IMG/VR virus record: IMGVR_UViG_3300035661_001517
Location: 1-23,820 of that record
Length of the DNA stretch: 23,820 bases
Reading direction: 5' to 3' (one strand)
Source: a virus
A model generated the notes under the pieces. It had not been told where the DNA came from and ran no database searches. It saw only the letters and a program-made list of their open reading frames with translations. The translations under genes and the position numbers were made by a program. Below are positions 8,772 to 15,214 of the stretch, in pieces. The stretch's first letter is position 1; each line of letters begins with the position of its first letter.

Positions 8772-9640
8772 TAGTCTATTTCCTTATCTTCTCTTAGTGA
8801 TACTATTACTGGTTGAATATATGTGTCCATTATCTGTTCATAGGATATTTCCCATACCTTACCAATAAAATAATTTGGTGCCTGTATTCTTTGTAGATCA
8901 GATAAACCACTTCCTGCTAATGCTGTTCTACCTATGGAATCTTTAAGAACTATTGCCCCAATTTGATTAGCATATTTACCTTGTCCATATTCAACACCAA
9001 TACATAGTAAATCAACTGTTGGTCTATTTTTAAGCTTTATACTATGATTTACTCTGTGACTAAATTCATAATAAGTATCAGGTTCTACAAGCATACAACC
9101 TTCCCAACCCATAGAGGTTAGTTCATCCTTATACTTAAAGGCCTCTCGTCCAGACATTGTAACCGTGTGAACTACTGAAATATTTTTAGGCACTATTGTA
9201 TATAGTAGATTTCTAGCTCTTTCTAATCTGTCTGCATATAGATATAAACCCACCTCAATAAAGTCAAATACTCTAACTAGACATTTACCTTCTTGACTAA
9301 ATTTAGTTTCTATACCCTTCTTAAAGTTAGTTCTAAACGTAGTTAGTATGGCTGATTTACTCCTATCCCCTAATTTACCTATTGAGTCATAGTTAAACTC
9401 TCCTACTAGTGTGAAGTTATCTCCGGCTAGTGAGCTAATATACTCATTCATCTTAGGCAGATTAAATTCTTTCCAGTCACTAGTAAAGAATCTAACTACA
9501 CCATTAATCTTTGAGATAAATATCTGATGTCCATCATACTTAGTTGAAACTAAGTATCTGATGTTATCAAATAAAGCTAATGTTTTAGCAGGTAGTTTAT
9601 CAAAAGCTTTACCCTTTTGTGGTTTCCAGCCTATCTTCAT
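8771..9640 (-). CDS. ATP-dependent DNA ligase (289 aa)
   Basis: Joins nicks, for example between Okazaki fragments, by adenylating a lysine. Motif I is K-Y-D-G (34-37) with Lys34 as the adenylated residue. Glu81 in V-G-E-F-N (79-83) fits motif III, E-G-C-M-L-V (180-185) is motif IV, and I-K-L-K-N-R (201-206) is motif V with two Lys. A short OB-fold-like tail follows from about 208. It is smaller than T7 ligase (359 residues), with a shortened N-terminus. The start at 9640 is supported by AAGGAG six bases upstream on the - strand. The gene overlaps the end of the preceding HTH gene by 32 bp. Confidence 0.85.
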   Translation of the reverse strand: MKIGWKPQKGKAFDKLPAKTLALFDNIRYLVSTKYDGHQIFISKINGVVRFFTSDWKEFNLPKMNEYISSLAGDNFTLVGEFNYDSIGKLGDRSKSAILTTFRTNFKKGIETKFSQEGKCLVRVFDFIEVGLYLYADRLERARNLLYTIVPKNISVVHTVTMSGREAFKYKDELTSMGWEGCMLVEPDTYYEFSHRVNHSIKLKNRPTVDLLCIGVEYGQGKYANQIGAIVLKDSIGRTALAGSGLSDLQRIQAPNYFIGKVWEISYEQIMDTYIQPVIVSLREDKEID

Positions 9641-9902
9641 TTAGTCTCCTTTGTTCCTTAAATATTTCAAGATGAGCTTCTAACTCTTCTACTGACTTGT
9701 ATATATTTATAAGTATATTAAAGTTATCTAATATTGCCTTACAAATAATAGGTGTTGGACATTTAGTCTTGCCTGTTGCATAGTAATGAACTTGTAAAGT
9801 AGATACACCAATTAAAGCTGCTATATGAGGCTTAGTATATTTTCTTTCAATTAATAGATGCATTGCTGCCATAAGTGGCAGTTCTAATGGTTTATTTTCC
9901 AT
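9609..9902 (-). CDS. Small helix-turn-helix protein (97 aa)
   Basis: Residues about 23-50 read as a Cro/XRE-like helix-turn-helix: T-K-P-H-I-A-A-L-I-G-V-S followed by a recognition helix with V-H-Y-Y-A-T-G-K. The C-terminal part is an acidic/basic coiled-coil-like helix with L-E-A-H-L-E-I-F-K-E-Q-R-R. It could be a transcription regulator of this operon, but nothing in the sequence identifies its operator. No strong Shine-Dalgarno precedes ATG 9902; translation may depend on coupling to folE, which it overlaps by 11 bp. A lone HTH protein does not by itself indicate a lysogenic lifestyle. Confidence 0.6.
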   Translation of the reverse strand: MENKPLELPLMAAMHLLIERKYTKPHIAALIGVSTLQVHYYATGKTKCPTPIICKAILDNFNILINIYKSVEELEAHLEIFKEQRRLNEDRLETTKG

Positions 9903-10455
9903 GGGTGTTTATTGTATTAAGAAACTCTGTCTTAACACCCTCCTCAGTTAGAAACAAACCAGTTAATTTAGTTGTAACAGTTCTTGCTCCGTGATGTCTA
10001 ACACCTCTAGTACTAACACACATATGCTCAGCAACTATTTGAACACCTACACCTCTAGGTTGTAATAGTTTCTGTAATTCATCTGCAATTTGTGTAGTTA
10101 GTCTTTCTTGAACTTGTAAACGTCTTGAGAATCTTTCAACTATTCTGTTCAATTTACTTAAACCTACTATCTTATCACTAGGTAAATATGCAATGTGACA
10201 GATACCACGAATAGGTGCTAAATGATGAGAACAGTGTGAAATAACTGGAATAGCTAATTCCACAACCATCTGGTCTGTACCTTCATCTTCAAAGGTTGTA
10301 AAGTTAAAATCCTTCTCATAACCTTCTGACCAATCATCATCCCAAGCCTTAATAAATCTTAGGGCAGTTCCTTCTGTATGTTGGTCTAATCTACCTTTTG
10401 AAATATATTCCATTACTTTTTCCATTGCTTGCACAGCATCATCTCTTGTTACCAT
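9892..10455 (-). CDS. folE: GTP cyclohydrolase I (187 aa)
   Basis: Converts GTP to dihydroneopterin triphosphate, the first step of 7-deazaguanine synthesis. Zinc ligands are visible: Cys75 and His78 in S-H-C-S-H-H-L-A-P (73-81) and Cys146 in E-H-M-C-V (143-147). The signature V-G-L-S-K-L-N-R-I-V (97-106) and Q-V-Q-E-R-L-T (114-120) are those of FolE, as is R-G-V (150-152). The usual Glu in CEHH is Ser here (C-S-H-H), a change I believe also occurs in other FolE proteins. It overlaps queC by 7 bp; AAGGAG lies upstream of the start. In this company it most likely feeds the deazaguanine pathway rather than folate synthesis. Confidence 0.93.
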   Translation of the reverse strand: MVTRDDAVQAMEKVMEYISKGRLDQHTEGTALRFIKAWDDDWSEGYEKDFNFTTFEDEGTDQMVVELAIPVISHCSHHLAPIRGICHIAYLPSDKIVGLSKLNRIVERFSRRLQVQERLTTQIADELQKLLQPRGVGVQIVAEHMCVSTRGVRHHGARTVTTKLTGLFLTEEGVKTEFLNTINTHGK

Positions 10456-11138
10456 TCTCCACTCTCCTTAAGTAAATTTTTTGCATACTCTGTATCTCTA
10501 TATAAAGTAGTATCAGTTATATTAGCTAATGCCCATATTCTTTCAACACAGGTTCCACACCTACCACAATGAACATCTAAGTTACCCTCATAACAAGAAT
10601 AGGTTTGGTTAGGCACCATCCCATATTTAACACCCATTTCAGCTATTTGTCTTTTATCCATTTTAGCAAAAGGTGCTACAAGTTCAAGTCTTGCCCAAGT
10701 ACCATTTCTAATAGCACTAGACATAGCCCTATTAAACTCTTGTGTACAATCAGGATACTGTGCATTATCACCCATATGACTTGCTAACATAATTTTAGTT
10801 AAGCCATTACTCTCAGCAATACCTGTAGCAATACTAAGCATAATACCATTTCTAAAAGGCACAACTGTTGATCTCATATTATCCTCTGCATAGTGTCCGT
10901 GTGGAATAGGCCCATCACTTAACAAAGCAGATTTTATATTTGAGAATATAGTATCAAGGTATATAACTTTATGTGGAATAGCTAAGCGTTCACAGTTGAG
11001 TTTTGCCATTTTAATTTCTTGGCCATTATGTTTACTACCATAGTTAAAACTAATAGCTAATGCTATTTGGTCCTTATAGATATGAAGAGCTGATGTACTA
11101 TCAAGCCCACCTGAATAAATTAATACTGTATCTTTCAT
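10449..11138 (-). CDS. queC: 7-cyano-7-deazaguanine (preQ0) synthase (229 aa)
   Basis: Converts 7-carboxy-7-deazaguanine to preQ0 using ATP and ammonia. The PP-loop motif is S-G-G-L-D-S-T (9-15). The zinc-binding motif near the C-terminus has Cys182, Cys191, Cys194 and Cys197, giving the CX8CX2CX2C spacing of canonical QueC. Other family blocks are F-N-Y-G (31-34), V-V-P-F-R-N (92-97) and the region around A-P-F-A-K-M-D-K (155-162). The length of 229 is normal. No glutamine amidotransferase domain is fused to it, unlike some phage QueC proteins. It overlaps folE downstream and dpdA upstream (4 bp), so the genes are translationally coupled. Confidence 0.95.
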   Translation of the reverse strand: MKDTVLIYSGGLDSTSALHIYKDQIALAISFNYGSKHNGQEIKMAKLNCERLAIPHKVIYLDTIFSNIKSALLSDGPIPHGHYAEDNMRSTVVPFRNGIMLSIATGIAESNGLTKIMLASHMGDNAQYPDCTQEFNRAMSSAIRNGTWARLELVAPFAKMDKRQIAEMGVKYGMVPNQTYSCYEGNLDVHCGRCGTCVERIWALANITDTTLYRDTEYAKNLLKESGEW

Positions 11139-11833
11139 CTTACAAGTCCTTCTAGAAAACTAATATTTTCCTGCATAAATAAATTTATATAAGTAAGTGG
11201 TTCATCAAAACGTACTGATAAACAATTCTTTCTAGTTTGATTCTTTAATAACTCTCCACAAAAGCCCTGCCATATAGCAGCACTACTATCCCAAGAGTAT
11301 ATCCAGTAACTATAAGGTGATAACATACCTAATTCCCAACAACTATCTGTTGCACCTAATAAGTGAATTTTCTTTTTAGGCATACCTACAGTTAAATAGT
11401 CTCTAAATAGTTCATATCTTGCACCAGGTGAATGTCTATAGTCAAGATGTTCCTCACTAACACCTACCATATCTATTTCTCTATCAAACATAAACTCACA
11501 AAATTGTTCTGGAGTTTTTGGAATACACATAACTTTATAACCAGCTTCCTTAAACTCTTTCAATCCATCTCTTGTTCCATCAGGACATATAAGTATTGTT
11601 GCCTTTACTTTATCAGCGGCCTCAAGCATTTCCTTAGGTGATAAACAATAACCCAGTTCAAAGAAACTATTATCAAGATATTTTATTCCTTCTAACTTAG
11701 CACAAGCTTTTGCATACTTTTCATCTGAAAGAACTAAATGTGTTAGTACCATATTTAGTCCTTTATTGTAATACTTATCAACAACATCAATAAGGCTTGT
11801 TGGAGCAATATGAATTAGTCTAATTGGATCCAT
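11135..11833 (-). CDS. dpdA: DpdA-like DNA-guanine transglycosylase, TGT fold (232 aa)
   Basis: Proposed to exchange guanine in phage DNA for a 7-deazaguanine base. Asp54 in Y-L-D-N-S-F-F-E (52-59) matches the D-N-G-A-F-E type motif of DpdA proteins and aligns with the D-S-G-G-F-Q of tRNA-guanine transglycosylase. P-D-G (84-86), I-H-L-L-G (156-160) and S-W-D-S-S-A (180-185) follow in the TGT order, the last Asp (182) being in the position of the TGT nucleophile. No CXCX2C zinc motif is seen. I use ATG 11833 (GGAGGT at 11839-11844, five-base spacing, TAATG coupling to queE), not the longer in-frame ATG 11878, which lies inside queE. The linkage to queC and queE supports a DNA role. A tRNA-directed TGT is the alternative but less likely given size and motifs. 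Confidence 0.75.
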   Translation of the reverse strand: MDPIRLIHIAPTSLIDVVDKYYNKGLNMVLTHLVLSDEKYAKACAKLEGIKYLDNSFFELGYCLSPKEMLEAADKVKATILICPDGTRDGLKEFKEAGYKVMCIPKTPEQFCEFMFDREIDMVGVSEEHLDYRHSPGARYELFRDYLTVGMPKKKIHLLGATDSCWELGMLSPYSYWIYSWDSSAAIWQGFCGELLKNQTRKNCLSVRFDEPLTYINLFMQENISFLEGLVR

Positions 11834-12435
11834 TATTGACCTCCATATAATTTGTGTAGTTGAATTGATAGTTTCCACTCTGGGTTATCAATTATGTAGT
11901 TAGCACACCATCTAATGTTATCTAAGTCTAGTGTAGACTCAAAACTAATTGGTTGAAGATATTTCTCAGCAAGAGTAAGATTCCATATCTCCTCTGGAGG
12001 ATTGTTTTTACTAGTGGGAAGTTTTAACTCATCATAACCTTCAAGTAATACTTTAGCTTTAATTGACCACCTTTTCTTAGGTGAATAGGTAATCCAATCA
12101 GCATTATTAATATTATCTAAGTTTTCCCCATTAGTTTCTACTTGAACATAATGCCCAAATAGCTGTAACTTAGTTATTAACTCATTTAGATCTTGAAGTG
12201 AGGGTTCACCCCCCGTAATAACTACGTGGTTTATACCTGAAGTAAATTTAATTATATCTTCTATGGAACAGTTAACTACTTTTGACTTATCAGTATGTAG
12301 TGGTTCATCACAAACTTTCCCACCACCAAAATCACAAGCTAAATTACAACCAAAGAATCTTATAAAAGATGCAGGTGTTCCAGAATGATGACCCTCACTC
12401 TGGATTGACTTAAACATTTCAACTATTTTGAACAC
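11833..12435 (-). CDS. queE: 7-carboxy-7-deazaguanine synthase, radical SAM (200 aa)
   Basis: Rearranges 6-carboxy-tetrahydropterin to 7-carboxy-7-deazaguanine with SAM and a [4Fe-4S] cluster. The N-terminus E-M-F-K-S-I-Q-S-E-G (6-15) and F-I-R-F-F-G-C-N-L (24-32) are typical of QueE, as are T-G-G-E-P-S (74-79), V-E-T-N-G (98-102) and Y-S-P-K (117-120). The cluster cysteines are Cys30, Cys34 and Cys42, spaced CX3CX7C with a Gly-rich insert D-F-G-G-G-K-V. This differs from the CX3CX2C and CX14CX2C forms known for the family. The C-terminal S-I-Q-L-H-K-L (190-196) is the usual QueE ending. It shares one base with dpdA downstream and overlaps queD by 13 bp. Confidence 0.92.
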   Translation of the reverse strand: MFKIVEMFKSIQSEGHHSGTPASFIRFFGCNLACDFGGGKVCDEPLHTDKSKVVNCSIEDIIKFTSGINHVVITGGEPSLQDLNELITKLQLFGHYVQVETNGENLDNINNADWITYSPKKRWSIKAKVLLEGYDELKLPTSKNNPPEEIWNLTLAEKYLQPISFESTLDLDNIRWCANYIIDNPEWKLSIQLHKLYGGQ

Positions 12436-12929
12436 TTATAGCTCCTTTTGTTTCCACCAAGTTGAACTTCAATTTCTGGTATATTATAATAGGTAACTTC
12501 TTCACCTACAAATGGTTTTAGTCTTTTAGCTACTGCCCAACCCGTAAGAGTTTCTTGAACTCTAACTTCTTTAACTGGTAAACCATTATCAACACAAGCT
12601 CTAAATATATGGTAAGCCATATTTTCTGCTGTTGGATTATAGTCAATCTCAACCATTCTAAGAGGAAGTAATCTTAGCATTGCTTTGTAGTGGTCTGCTA
12701 ATATATCCTCTGAGTAGAACATAAATGAATGGTCCCAAGCTTCAAACAAGTGACTAAGTTTGTTCTTTAGTTCACCAAAGTCCATAACCATTCCATCTTC
12801 ATTTAGGTATTCAGACTCAAGTGCAACCTCAAATATATAACTATGTCCGTGAATACTTTGACACTTTTTACTGTATGATGATACTAGTCTATGTGATATC
12901 TCTGCCTTAAATTGTTTAGTTGCTACCAT
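12423..12929 (-). CDS. queD: 6-carboxy-5,6,7,8-tetrahydropterin synthase (168 aa)
   Basis: Second step of the pathway, converting dihydroneopterin triphosphate to 6-carboxy-tetrahydropterin. Zinc ligands are His13 in I-S-H-R-L, and His27 and His29 in S-I-H-G-H-S-Y (25-31). Cys23 is the catalytic cysteine; Asp66-His67 (W-D-H-S) and Glu126 (V-Q-E-T) complete the active site. V-M-D-F-G-E-L-K (48-55) and P-T-A-E-N-M-A (99-105) are family signatures. It is longer than the 120-130 residues usual for QueD, mainly through a C-terminal extension of about 25 residues. ATG 12929 lies in the end of the exonuclease gene (14 bp overlap) and follows AAGGAAAG on the - strand. Confidence 0.93.
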   Translation of the reverse strand: MVATKQFKAEISHRLVSSYSKKCQSIHGHSYIFEVALESEYLNEDGMVMDFGELKNKLSHLFEAWDHSFMFYSEDILADHYKAMLRLLPLRMVEIDYNPTAENMAYHIFRACVDNGLPVKEVRVQETLTGWAVAKRLKPFVGEEVTYYNIPEIEVQLGGNKRSYKCSK

Positions 12930-13506
12930 TTATTCTTTCCTTTATATATAGTGCTAACTTTCTTGTTAGCTTAACATCAGTCATAGAGTTATGTAAATTA
13001 CCTTCTTCTATGATACCAAATTCTTCACAAACTGTACCTAGTTTTTGGTTAAACGTCTTTGGTAAGACTCCCATAAACTGGATAAATTTTAATGCTTCAA
13101 AAACATCAATTTGTTTTCTAGTAAAATATAGGTTAATCTGTCTACCAAATAAACTAAATAGTTCTTCTAAGAAAAACTTATCAAATGTACTATTATTATA
13201 ACCACAAGGAATAACCTTATGGTCACCACAATTAACTGTAACTAGGTGCATAATGCTTTTAACTACAAATTCTGCTTCTAAACCATTAGTCTCTAGCCAA
13301 TCAATACTTAGACCATTTACATTCATAGCCTCAGGTGATACTGTAACTGCTCTTCCATATGTAGAAGGTTTTATATAGTAGTCAAATTCATCTATAACTG
13401 TGCCTGTATCAGTCTTACAAAGTAGGCCCGATATCTGAACAATAGCTGCTCCTTCTTTAATATCTAAACCCGTTGTTTCAACGTCATACCATAAGGAATA
13501 ACTCAT
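12916..13506 (-). CDS. DnaQ-like 3'-5' exonuclease, DEDDh type (196 aa)
   Basis: The five catalytic residues of a DEDDh exonuclease are visible: Asp8 and Glu10 in Y-D-V-E-T-T-G-L, Asp109 in N-S-T-F-D-K, and His172 and Asp177 in H-N-S-M-T-D. Q-I-S-G after the first motif and the N-T-F-N-Q-K-like segment (T-F-N-Q-K-L, 151-156) fit RNase T/DnaQ relatives. It lies between queF and queD, overlapping both (4 bp with queF, 14 bp with queD), which is a curious place for an exonuclease. The phage polymerase has its own proofreading domain, so this enzyme may act in RNA or DNA turnover, or in trimming ends, rather than as its subunit. Confidence 0.85.
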   Translation of the reverse strand: MSYSLWYDVETTGLDIKEGAAIVQISGLLCKTDTGTVIDEFDYYIKPSTYGRAVTVSPEAMNVNGLSIDWLETNGLEAEFVVKSIMHLVTVNCGDHKVIPCGYNNSTFDKFFLEELFSLFGRQINLYFTRKQIDVFEALKFIQFMGVLPKTFNQKLGTVCEEFGIIEEGNLHNSMTDVKLTRKLALYIKERINGSN

Positions 13507-13952
13507 CCTTCTCTGCCCAATCTAAGACAAGTTTTAAAGCTGTTACCAACTTCAACTATTGTTGTTACATTACCCCTAGGCATCATCTCAAGTTTAACAT
13601 ATAGTTCTTGTGGATTAAGTTTACCTTTAAGAGTATTATAAATTCCATTAGCTAAATCCTCGTGACTAATATTTACATTTCTAAAACTATTAATCCATAG
13701 TTTAAATGCCTTTAGTTCAACTGTTAGTTTATCTGGTTTAAACTCAACTGTAACTTTACCTGAGTCAGGATATCCACTAACTGGACATAATGCTGATATC
13801 TCTGGGTGTATCATTGTAACCCAATAGTTATTACTTCCATCAACAGGCCAAGTTACAAGGTCCTCCTTAACATCAAAAGACTCAATTATCTTTCTACCAT
13901 ATCTCTCTGCATCTGAGCTTAATTTTGCTCTTTCATTACTAAATGTACTCAT
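13503..13952 (-). CDS. queF: NADPH-dependent preQ0 reductase (149 aa)
   Basis: Reduces preQ0 to preQ1 (7-aminomethyl-7-deazaguanine). Catalytic residues are in place: Cys56 and Asp63 in L-C-P-V-S-G-Y-P-D (55-63), and His97-Glu98 in S-H-E-D (96-99). The numbering is one off from the Bacillus subtilis enzyme (Cys55, Asp62, His96, Glu97). The NADPH-binding QueF motif E-L-K-A-F-K-L-W (79-86) matches E(S/L)K(S/A)xK(L/Y)(Y/F/W) at every position. That motif is missing from the archaeal QueF-like amidinotransferases, so a reductase is the better call. Length is that of the single-domain type. AGGAG precedes ATG 13952, and the gene starts 1 bp after the flap endonuclease gene. Confidence 0.92.
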   Translation of the reverse strand: MSTFSNERAKLSSDAERYGRKIIESFDVKEDLVTWPVDGSNNYWVTMIHPEISALCPVSGYPDSGKVTVEFKPDKLTVELKAFKLWINSFRNVNISHEDLANGIYNTLKGKLNPQELYVKLEMMPRGNVTTIVEVGNSFKTCLRLGREG

Positions 13953-13953
13953 T

Positions 13954-14778
13954 TTATTCTCCTAATTTTTCAGTCCATAACTCAAGGTTATGTTCTTTTG
14001 TTACCTGGTGCATATTCACCAACCTCATATTTAATATTGCCTCTTTCTCTGTTTGCTTATTATCTAAATAAGCTTTAAGAGTATTTCTCCACAGTATCTT
14101 CTCATCTCTGGTTGAACCAAGTATAGCCTCAGCCTTTTTAGGCCCAATACCTTTAACACCTGCAATGCCATCAGCAGAGTCACCCATTAAACATTGTAAA
14201 TAGGGCCATCTTATTGCTTCCTCAGGTGTTGTTTCTACCCAACTCATTAATATCTTATACTTAAGATTTTCATAATAGTTAAAGTGAATTCCACTAACTC
14301 CATTGAACACATCCTTATCCACAGAACATAAAATATACTTTTCTGGATATTCACGTTTAAGCATACAAACTATATCATCTGCCTCATAGTCAGAATGGAT
14401 AAAAGCCTTAGTTGGATTATGTTCAACTAATAGAGACTTTAATTCTCTTAATCCAGAGGGATATCTGGTGTCTTTTCTGTTACTTTTATAATTAGGTGTT
14501 AGAGTATACCTGAAATTCTTACCTGATGTAAAGTGCAGTTCAAAGTCCTTACAACCTGTTATTTCTACATAGTTGTTTATCTTTGTATTTGCTACTTCAA
14601 AGGCTTCTTCTATATTAATTTCATATCCAGCCTCATCATCACCATACTCACAACCACTACAAGTTGCATAGACAATAGTATCAGCATCAATTAAAAGAAT
14701 CTTATCCTTTGTATCTGGTTTAAGGTGTATATTCTTAATTGCCTTTTCACGTTCTTCTACTCTTGTTTCCTCAAACAT
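13954..14778 (-). CDS. 5'-3' exonuclease / flap endonuclease, T5 D15-like (274 aa)
   Basis: Removes RNA primers and 5' flaps during replication. Metal-binding acids appear as L-I-D-A-D (29-33), Y-E-A-D-D (131-135), V-D-K-D (153-156) and M-G-D-S-A-D (198-203). N-Y-K-S-N-R-K (96-102) holds the basic residues that contact the scissile phosphate. The helix-3-turn-helix that grips duplex DNA is G-V-K-G-I-G-P-K-K-A (207-216). I use ATG 14778, which GGAG precedes with six-base spacing; the in-frame TTG at 14790 has no better support. It overlaps the preceding gene by 8 bp. The separate polymerase lacks this domain, so the two proteins would cooperate. Confidence 0.88.
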   Translation of the reverse strand: MFEETRVEEREKAIKNIHLKPDTKDKILLIDADTIVYATCSGCEYGDDEAGYEINIEEAFEVANTKINNYVEITGCKDFELHFTSGKNFRYTLTPNYKSNRKDTRYPSGLRELKSLLVEHNPTKAFIHSDYEADDIVCMLKREYPEKYILCSVDKDVFNGVSGIHFNYYENLKYKILMSWVETTPEEAIRWPYLQCLMGDSADGIAGVKGIGPKKAEAILGSTRDEKILWRNTLKAYLDNKQTEKEAILNMRLVNMHQVTKEHNLELWTEKLGE

Positions 14779-15214
14779 TATAGACTCCAAATTGTTTTTC
14801 TAAAGCTAAAATAAATAAACTATTTGTAGCAATATGTGCCATATGTGGTAGCCCACTTTCCAGATCTACTATCTCACCTTGAGCCATTGAACTATAATGT
14901 CTAAGTAGTGCAGCCTTATATCTGGGTATATCTTCTTTCTTGCTATTAATCCTCCAGTTTTCCTCAGGTTTAGGATACTTCTTAATACCATAAGTTAATA
15001 CTTTAGCTACATAGTCTAAAGCATCAAAGGGCATAAGATCATATCTTAGTTTACCCTCATCCTGTTTTACAGAAGTATTTGGACCTGCCCACTTATCCTT
15101 CCAATCAGAATCTGGTCTCACACTAGCCAATTGAGTATTAATTTTACCTTTCTTTTCATACGCTGTAACAGGTCCTTCACCATCTCTCCATTCATTTAGT
15201 TCTTTATTAGTCAT
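14771..15214 (-). CDS. dATP/dGTP diphosphohydrolase-domain protein, DUF5664-like (147 aa)
   Basis: The C-terminal two thirds match the phage dATP/dGTP diphosphohydrolase N-terminal domain family: Q-D-E-G-K-L-R-Y-D-L-M-P (51-62), T-Y-G-I-K-K-Y (74-80), E-N-W-R (85-88), R-Y-K-A-A-L-L-R-H (98-106), then G-E-I-V-D-L-E-S-G-L-P-H (113-124) and a final helix. His106, Glu114, Asp117, Glu119 and His124 are likely metal or substrate residues. Members relate to all-alpha NTP pyrophosphohydrolases and would convert dATP or dGTP to the monophosphate. The N-terminal 45 residues are charged and unrecognised. It overlaps the polymerase gene by 8 bp and has AGAGGAG upstream. Its presence could reshape the dGTP pool, but substrate choice is inference. 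Confidence 0.75.
   Translation of the reverse strand: MTNKELNEWRDGEGPVTAYEKKGKINTQLASVRPDSDWKDKWAGPNTSVKQDEGKLRYDLMPFDALDYVAKVLTYGIKKYPKPEENWRINSKKEDIPRYKAALLRHYSSMAQGEIVDLESGLPHMAHIATNSLFILALEKQFGVYNV

Follow-up and report, generated by a model that had tools for sequence, protein, structure and literature searches.

Gene content of the operon

The 23,820-base IMG/VR virus fragment analysed here (the window, by which we mean the whole stretch) carries on its minus strand an operon in which the genes for QueF, a DnaQ-like exonuclease, QueD, QueE, a small protein resembling tRNA-guanine transglycosylases (TGT), QueC and FolE succeed one another in that order, neighboring genes overlapping by 1-14 nt (Table 1). 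A gene is present for each step from GTP to preQ1 (7-aminomethyl-7-deazaguanine), and a short loop of the small protein, a putative relative of the phage DNA transglycosylase DpdA, covaries with the presence of QueF among related phages. The window additionally encodes a P22-type portal (PF16510, 1e-80) and a family A polymerase, for which Edwardsiella phage KF-1 and Vibrio phage VPMS1 are among the best phage relatives; its source is a P22-like uncultured bacterial virus. The initial annotation had reported a complete preQ1 pathway with intact catalytic motifs, tightly coupled to a DpdA-like protein. All five pathway genes indeed lie where it had placed them and the coupling is borne out, but it passed over the exonuclease gene within the span, and QueE departs from the textbook motif. 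Relatives with as little as ~47% DpdA identity preserve the arrangement of the genes from QueD to FolE, and hence the grouping is not due to chance.

Table 1. Features of the operon and its immediate surroundings in the window
Feature	Position	Strand	Evidence or remark
QueF, preQ0 reductase (preQ1 synthase), 149 aa	13503..13952	-	TIGR03139, 88.8 bits, above the cut-off of 86.9
DnaQ-like 3'-5' exonuclease inside the operon	12916..13506	-	PF00929, 3e-13; may have a part in the modification
QueD, 6-carboxytetrahydropterin synthase	12423..12929	-	PTPS PF01242, 1e-26; CxxxHGH present
QueE, radical-SAM CDG (7-carboxy-7-deazaguanine) synthase	11833..12435	-	PHROG 2076, 3e-27; GTG start
Small DpdA-like putative DNA-guanine transglycosylase, 232 aa from ATG	11135..11833	-	Family profiles, motifs, fold
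E127-E128 codons in the S-E-E-H loop after strand beta6, predicted preQ1-specificity determinant	11450..11455	-	Loop-QueF covariation
QueC, preQ0 synthase	10449..11138	-	TIGR00364, 167.1, above 150.3; PP-loop SGGLDS and Cys cluster intact
FolE, GTP cyclohydrolase I	9892..10455	-	PF01227, 2.3e-56; NCBIfam 183.7 bits, cut-off 174
97-aa protein without family match, directly after folE	9609..9902	-	Present in 7/8 relatives

QueF retains the thioimide cysteine C56, D63 and the pair H97-E98. The NADPH-binding motif of unimodular QueF has the form E(S/L)K(S/A)xK(L/Y)(Y/F/W); the window protein has ELKAFKLW at residues 79-86, which aligns with ESKSLKLY of a solved QueF and of the QueF of Streptococcus phage Dp-1, and the active-site residues are likewise common to the Dp-1 enzyme. 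We considered whether the protein might instead be an archaeosine synthase of the QueF-L type and rejected this, as its phmmer match to QueF-L (5jyx, 1.9e-7) is weaker than that to the solved B. subtilis-type QueF (4f8b, 1.3e-13). QueD scores 82.6 against TIGR03367, slightly below the cut-off of 89.25, and the NCBIfam matches of QueE also stay under their curated cut-offs, so that QueE is clear by PHROGs alone. Its cluster-binding cysteines are spaced C-x3-C-x7-C rather than CxxxCxxC. The same spacing occurs in four relatives (L004, L086, L088, L089) and in Flavobacterium phage immuto, with the textbook form in four others (L005, L008, L013, L087). In relatives from large phages the distance to the third cysteine is greater again (CNLxCxGFGQ...GCDS), and non-canonical radical-SAM cysteine spacing seems to be frequent in QueE proteins of phages. 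A scan of Rfam at E<=1 found no preQ1 riboswitch.

The DpdA-like putative transglycosylase

In scans of the window proteins the profile libraries named no family for the TGT-like protein, which also lacked a match to the Pfam TGT family, and a family-profile sequence search of PDB returned noise only. Among GTDB genomes, 396 peptide-pattern matches contained no cellular relatives, a weak negative since the patterns were narrow. Scans of viral contigs recovered a close clade (L003, L004, L005, L008, L086, L087 and L088) together with several hundred distant relatives. In the alignment of 50 sequences that served for the hhalign comparisons, the predicted catalytic aspartates D54 and D182 are invariant. 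This family matches the DpdA of immuto (P 1.5e-19) and, nearly end to end, gp056 of the Campylobacter phage CP220 (Firehammervirus; P 4.1e-14, family hidden Markov model (HMM) E 1e-16), with both Asp motifs aligned. It also matches a set of four diverse DpdA1 proteins from phages CAjan, Dp-1, R7M and phi38:2 (P 1.3e-5), in which DNSFFE/DSGAFS, KIHLLG/KxHAFG and SWDSS/SCDSS fall in register and both predicted catalytic aspartates coincide. The corresponding CAjan motifs are DSGAFS, KxHxxG and SCDSS, and the DpdA1 of this Escherichia phage has been proven essential for base insertion (PMC6884629). CAjan differs from the window in having no QueF, a TGT-like GGMVG loop, dPreQ0 (the deoxynucleoside of preQ0) as its measured modification, and no direct BLAST similarity between the two enzymes.

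An AlphaFold2 model predicts a TIM barrel (mean predicted local distance difference test score 92, predicted TM-score 0.90). In fold searches the longest alignments were to TGTs, including archaeosine TGT (1iq8; Z 13.4, 217 residues aligned), and the viral matches included the DpdA2 of phage nt-1 and phage queuine transferases. In the model the C-terminal ends of strands carry D54, D85, G160 and D182, the position that active-site residues occupy in TGT. Further, FolE, QueD or QueE is commonly encoded near the DpdA-like gene in the distant relatives, and this supports a role for the protein in the 7-deazaguanine pathway.

Several results weigh against this assignment. A deeper but narrower DpdA1 set gave an hhalign P of only 0.012; the comparisons with nt-1 DpdA2 (0.12), E. 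coli TGT (0.48) and the DpdA of Mufasa8 were not significant; an HMM search produced no match between the window family and DpdA1; and other TIM barrels equalled the TGTs in Z-score. We therefore regard the tie to DpdA1 as remote, while profiles, motifs and predicted fold together support the identification of the inserting enzyme as a remote DpdA relative. The initial call of a DpdA-like, TGT-fold protein is upheld to this extent, although no library names the protein and the call overlooked that its branch is shared with Campylobacter phages in which guanine is fully replaced. Cui et al. (NAR 2023; a paper cited in PMC12783734) reportedly defined a DpdA3 in fully modified phages. The window enzyme is probably a divergent member of this DpdA3.

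Two other uses of such an enzyme need to be considered. As bacterial TGT naturally uses preQ1, and phages with pathway genes but without DpdA may supply host queuosine, the operon could in principle serve tRNA rather than phage DNA. We hold this to be very unlikely, because the operon comes with a transglycosylase-like protein of its own, far smaller than TGT with its 232 aa and lacking the Pfam TGT match, and because QueA, QueG and QueH were not seen in the window. Alternatively, the protein might link the base to another protein, given that a TGT-family enzyme joining 7-deazapurines to protein, Cap10 of the cyclic-oligonucleotide-based anti-phage signaling system (CBASS), has been reported (PMC11996544). 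In profile comparisons that covered DpdA proteins, CP220 gp056 and E. coli TGT, the relationship found was to phage DpdA and CP220 gp056, and no CBASS genes were recognized in the window; such conjugation appears extremely improbable.

Covariation of a DpdA loop with QueF

In the window's clade the loop following strand beta6 reads S-E-E-H in all five QueF-bearing phages, and the EE pair is absent from all five in which QueF was not detected. The sister L003, whose DpdA-like protein is 84% identical to that of the window, has the same gene order with QueF missing exactly between its neighbors, and a search of the remainder of its contig did not find the gene. In the five QueF-bearing phages and L005, whose contig ends short of the QueF position, 93 DpdA columns are invariant. 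L003 departs from these at three, and two of the three, E127 and E128, are also altered in all the remaining phages in which QueF was not detected. Two members found later, L199 (SFFH) and L201 (SYLH), fit the pattern, no QueF having been found in either; a weak QueF match in the L199 record proved to be FolE. A tree of QueC and FolE places L003 (100%) and L088 inside the QueF-bearing clade (98%), with L199, L201 and L013 outside, which suggests one gain and two losses of QueF in the clade, each matched by the loop.

The pattern recurs in DpdA1, where the loop is GG[ML]V or near it in phages lacking QueF and, when QueF is present, often [GC]xSPxND. Among 137 sequences GGxV occurs in 0/14 with QueF and in 122/123 in which QueF was not found (Fisher P 3e-18, a value that ignores relatedness and is not to be taken at face value). 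On a DpdA1 tree built without the loop QueF changes four times, as against at least 12 times after shuffling of the labels, and GGxV has disappeared from each QueF-bearing clade. The set takes in Dp-1 (loop GISPAND), in whose DNA dPreQ1 was measured, and the dPreQ0-bearing CAjan. The corresponding loop of Z. mobilis TGT (L231/A232 with E235) toggles between the bases guanine and preQ1 (PMC3660597).

Some features of these data count against the association. The transitions are few (~3 in the window's clade, 4 in DpdA1), and support is weak at some inner nodes of the former and low at some clade nodes of the latter. Absence of QueF was judged from possibly incomplete contigs, and for DpdA1 loci from the available flanks only. 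The sole exception is a DpdA1-type protein with neither GGxV nor QueF, in L210. This TGT-like protein (L210 5114-5998) is encoded in a 79-kb record with full pathway genes.

For both Dp-1 and HVTV-1, phages in whose DNA preQ1 was already known, Hutinet 2019 did not settle if the reduction of preQ0 by QueF precedes or follows insertion. The covariation is most simply explained by a DpdA that chooses the free base and a QueF that acts before insertion; the link in two DpdA subfamilies argues for this, and supports preQ1 as the base inserted in the window phage. The preference of the initial annotation for preQ1 is thereby strengthened, together with the reductase residues of QueF and its greater closeness to QueF than to QueF-L. 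Reduction of preQ0 to preQ1 after it has entered DNA, in the manner of archaeal QueF-L on tRNA, appears improbable to us: the QueF residues fit a free-base reductase, and a loop that changes with QueF in two subfamilies would not be expected of a DpdA that handled preQ0 in all cases. These comparisons further suggest that one small DpdA loop decides which modified base is used. Until now the inserted 7-deazaguanine could be guessed from the gene list only, whereas the loop offers a residue-level prediction from sequence, and the window enzyme and its L003 counterpart form a matched natural pair for comparison. Phage preQ1-DNA, phage QueF and DpdA were all known; the new element is the loop-QueF relationship, which we did not find in the literature searched. 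As the most relevant papers lay outside that literature, its novelty is provisional.

Proposed pathway and related systems

We consider the following scheme probable: 1) FolE, QueD, QueE and QueC would convert GTP to preQ0. 2) QueF would reduce the free preQ0 to preQ1. 3) The small DpdA-like enzyme would replace guanine in phage DNA with preQ1 through the double-displacement mechanism of TGT, with D182 as the nucleophile and D54 as the general acid/base. 4) The S-E-E-H loop would read the 7-substituent, its acidic pair being well matched to the positively charged aminomethyl group. 5) The resulting dPreQ1-DNA would withstand host enzymes that depend on N7 of guanine. The analysis itself shows the genes with their motifs and overlaps, the homology of the TGT-like protein and the covariation of its loop with QueF; the chemistry, the action on DNA and the part assigned to E127/E128 are inferred, and restriction protection of the window phage is proposed by analogy with other phages.

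The closest precedent in gene content is Dp-1, which groups FolE, QueD, QueE, QueC and QueF with a transglycosylase in a single operon and has measured dPreQ1 in its DNA (PMC6884629); the combination is therefore less unusual than the initial annotation had made it. Unlike the window, Dp-1 has an enzyme of the DpdA1 subfamily without direct sequence match to the window DpdA, a QueT transporter, ~1.7% of G modified and Streptococcus pneumoniae as its host. Phage immuto shares with the window the DpdA branch, QueF and the pathway genes, but has in addition a formyltransferase-like gene and a kinase, carries the loop SFDY instead of SEEH, and its genes are interspersed with others.

CP220 differs in its 177-kb genome, the absence of the EE loop, an adjoining kinase-like gene, and a modification that is dADG (2'-deoxy-7-amido-7-deazaguanosine) instead of preQ1. 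In CP220 and CPt10 100% of dG is replaced by dADG (PMC8306585), and a modified-dGTP path has been proposed in the literature for the Campylobacter phages. With CP220 gp056 in its family, the window enzyme might correspondingly carry out the exchange on dGMP or dGTP, the modified nucleotide then being polymerized with full replacement of G. Within 900 bp downstream of DpdA, a deoxynucleoside monophosphate (dNMP) kinase (PF21448) is encoded in 21/49 representatives of the family as against 0/54 DpdA1, a count that includes the P-loop kinase-like proteins of CP220 and immuto and is biased, as the kinase profile derives from this same family. The window itself encodes MazG and a protein with a dATP/dGTP diphosphohydrolase N-terminal domain. 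However, dNMP kinases and nucleotide hydrolases are carried by many phages, a search of the L008 and L088 contigs did not reveal the hydrolase, and no kinase was found in the examined contigs of the window's clade. For this last reason we prefer exchange in DNA for the window and judge the nucleotide-pool route quite unlikely there. As the branch occurs in Campylobacter phages with dG fully replaced, a broader proposal is that the phage replaces essentially all guanine with preQ1 and that in part of the branch the enzyme and a neighboring dNMP kinase act on the nucleotide pool; this we put forward as doubtful.

In Hutinet 2019 the Campylobacter phages are grouped with phages lacking DpdA. The CP220 gp056 protein (L180 8995-9771), annotated as hypothetical, is likely to serve as the transglycosylase in the Campylobacter phages with full dADG modification, and its link to the window family points to the enzyme behind full G replacement. 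In many large phages a dNMP kinase or P-loop kinase-like gene directly follows the DpdA-like gene (L015 6849-7406, L006 8840-9385, L180 9813-10355), often followed in turn by a dCTP-deaminase-like gene. Many large-phage relatives (e.g. L021, L035, L053) encode FolE, QueD, QueE and DpdA, with QueC not detected nearby; they may insert another 7-deazaguanine, or their QueC may be located elsewhere or be divergent. The diphosphohydrolase-domain protein of the window (14771-15214) adjoins the polymerase and is present in several relatives, though not all.

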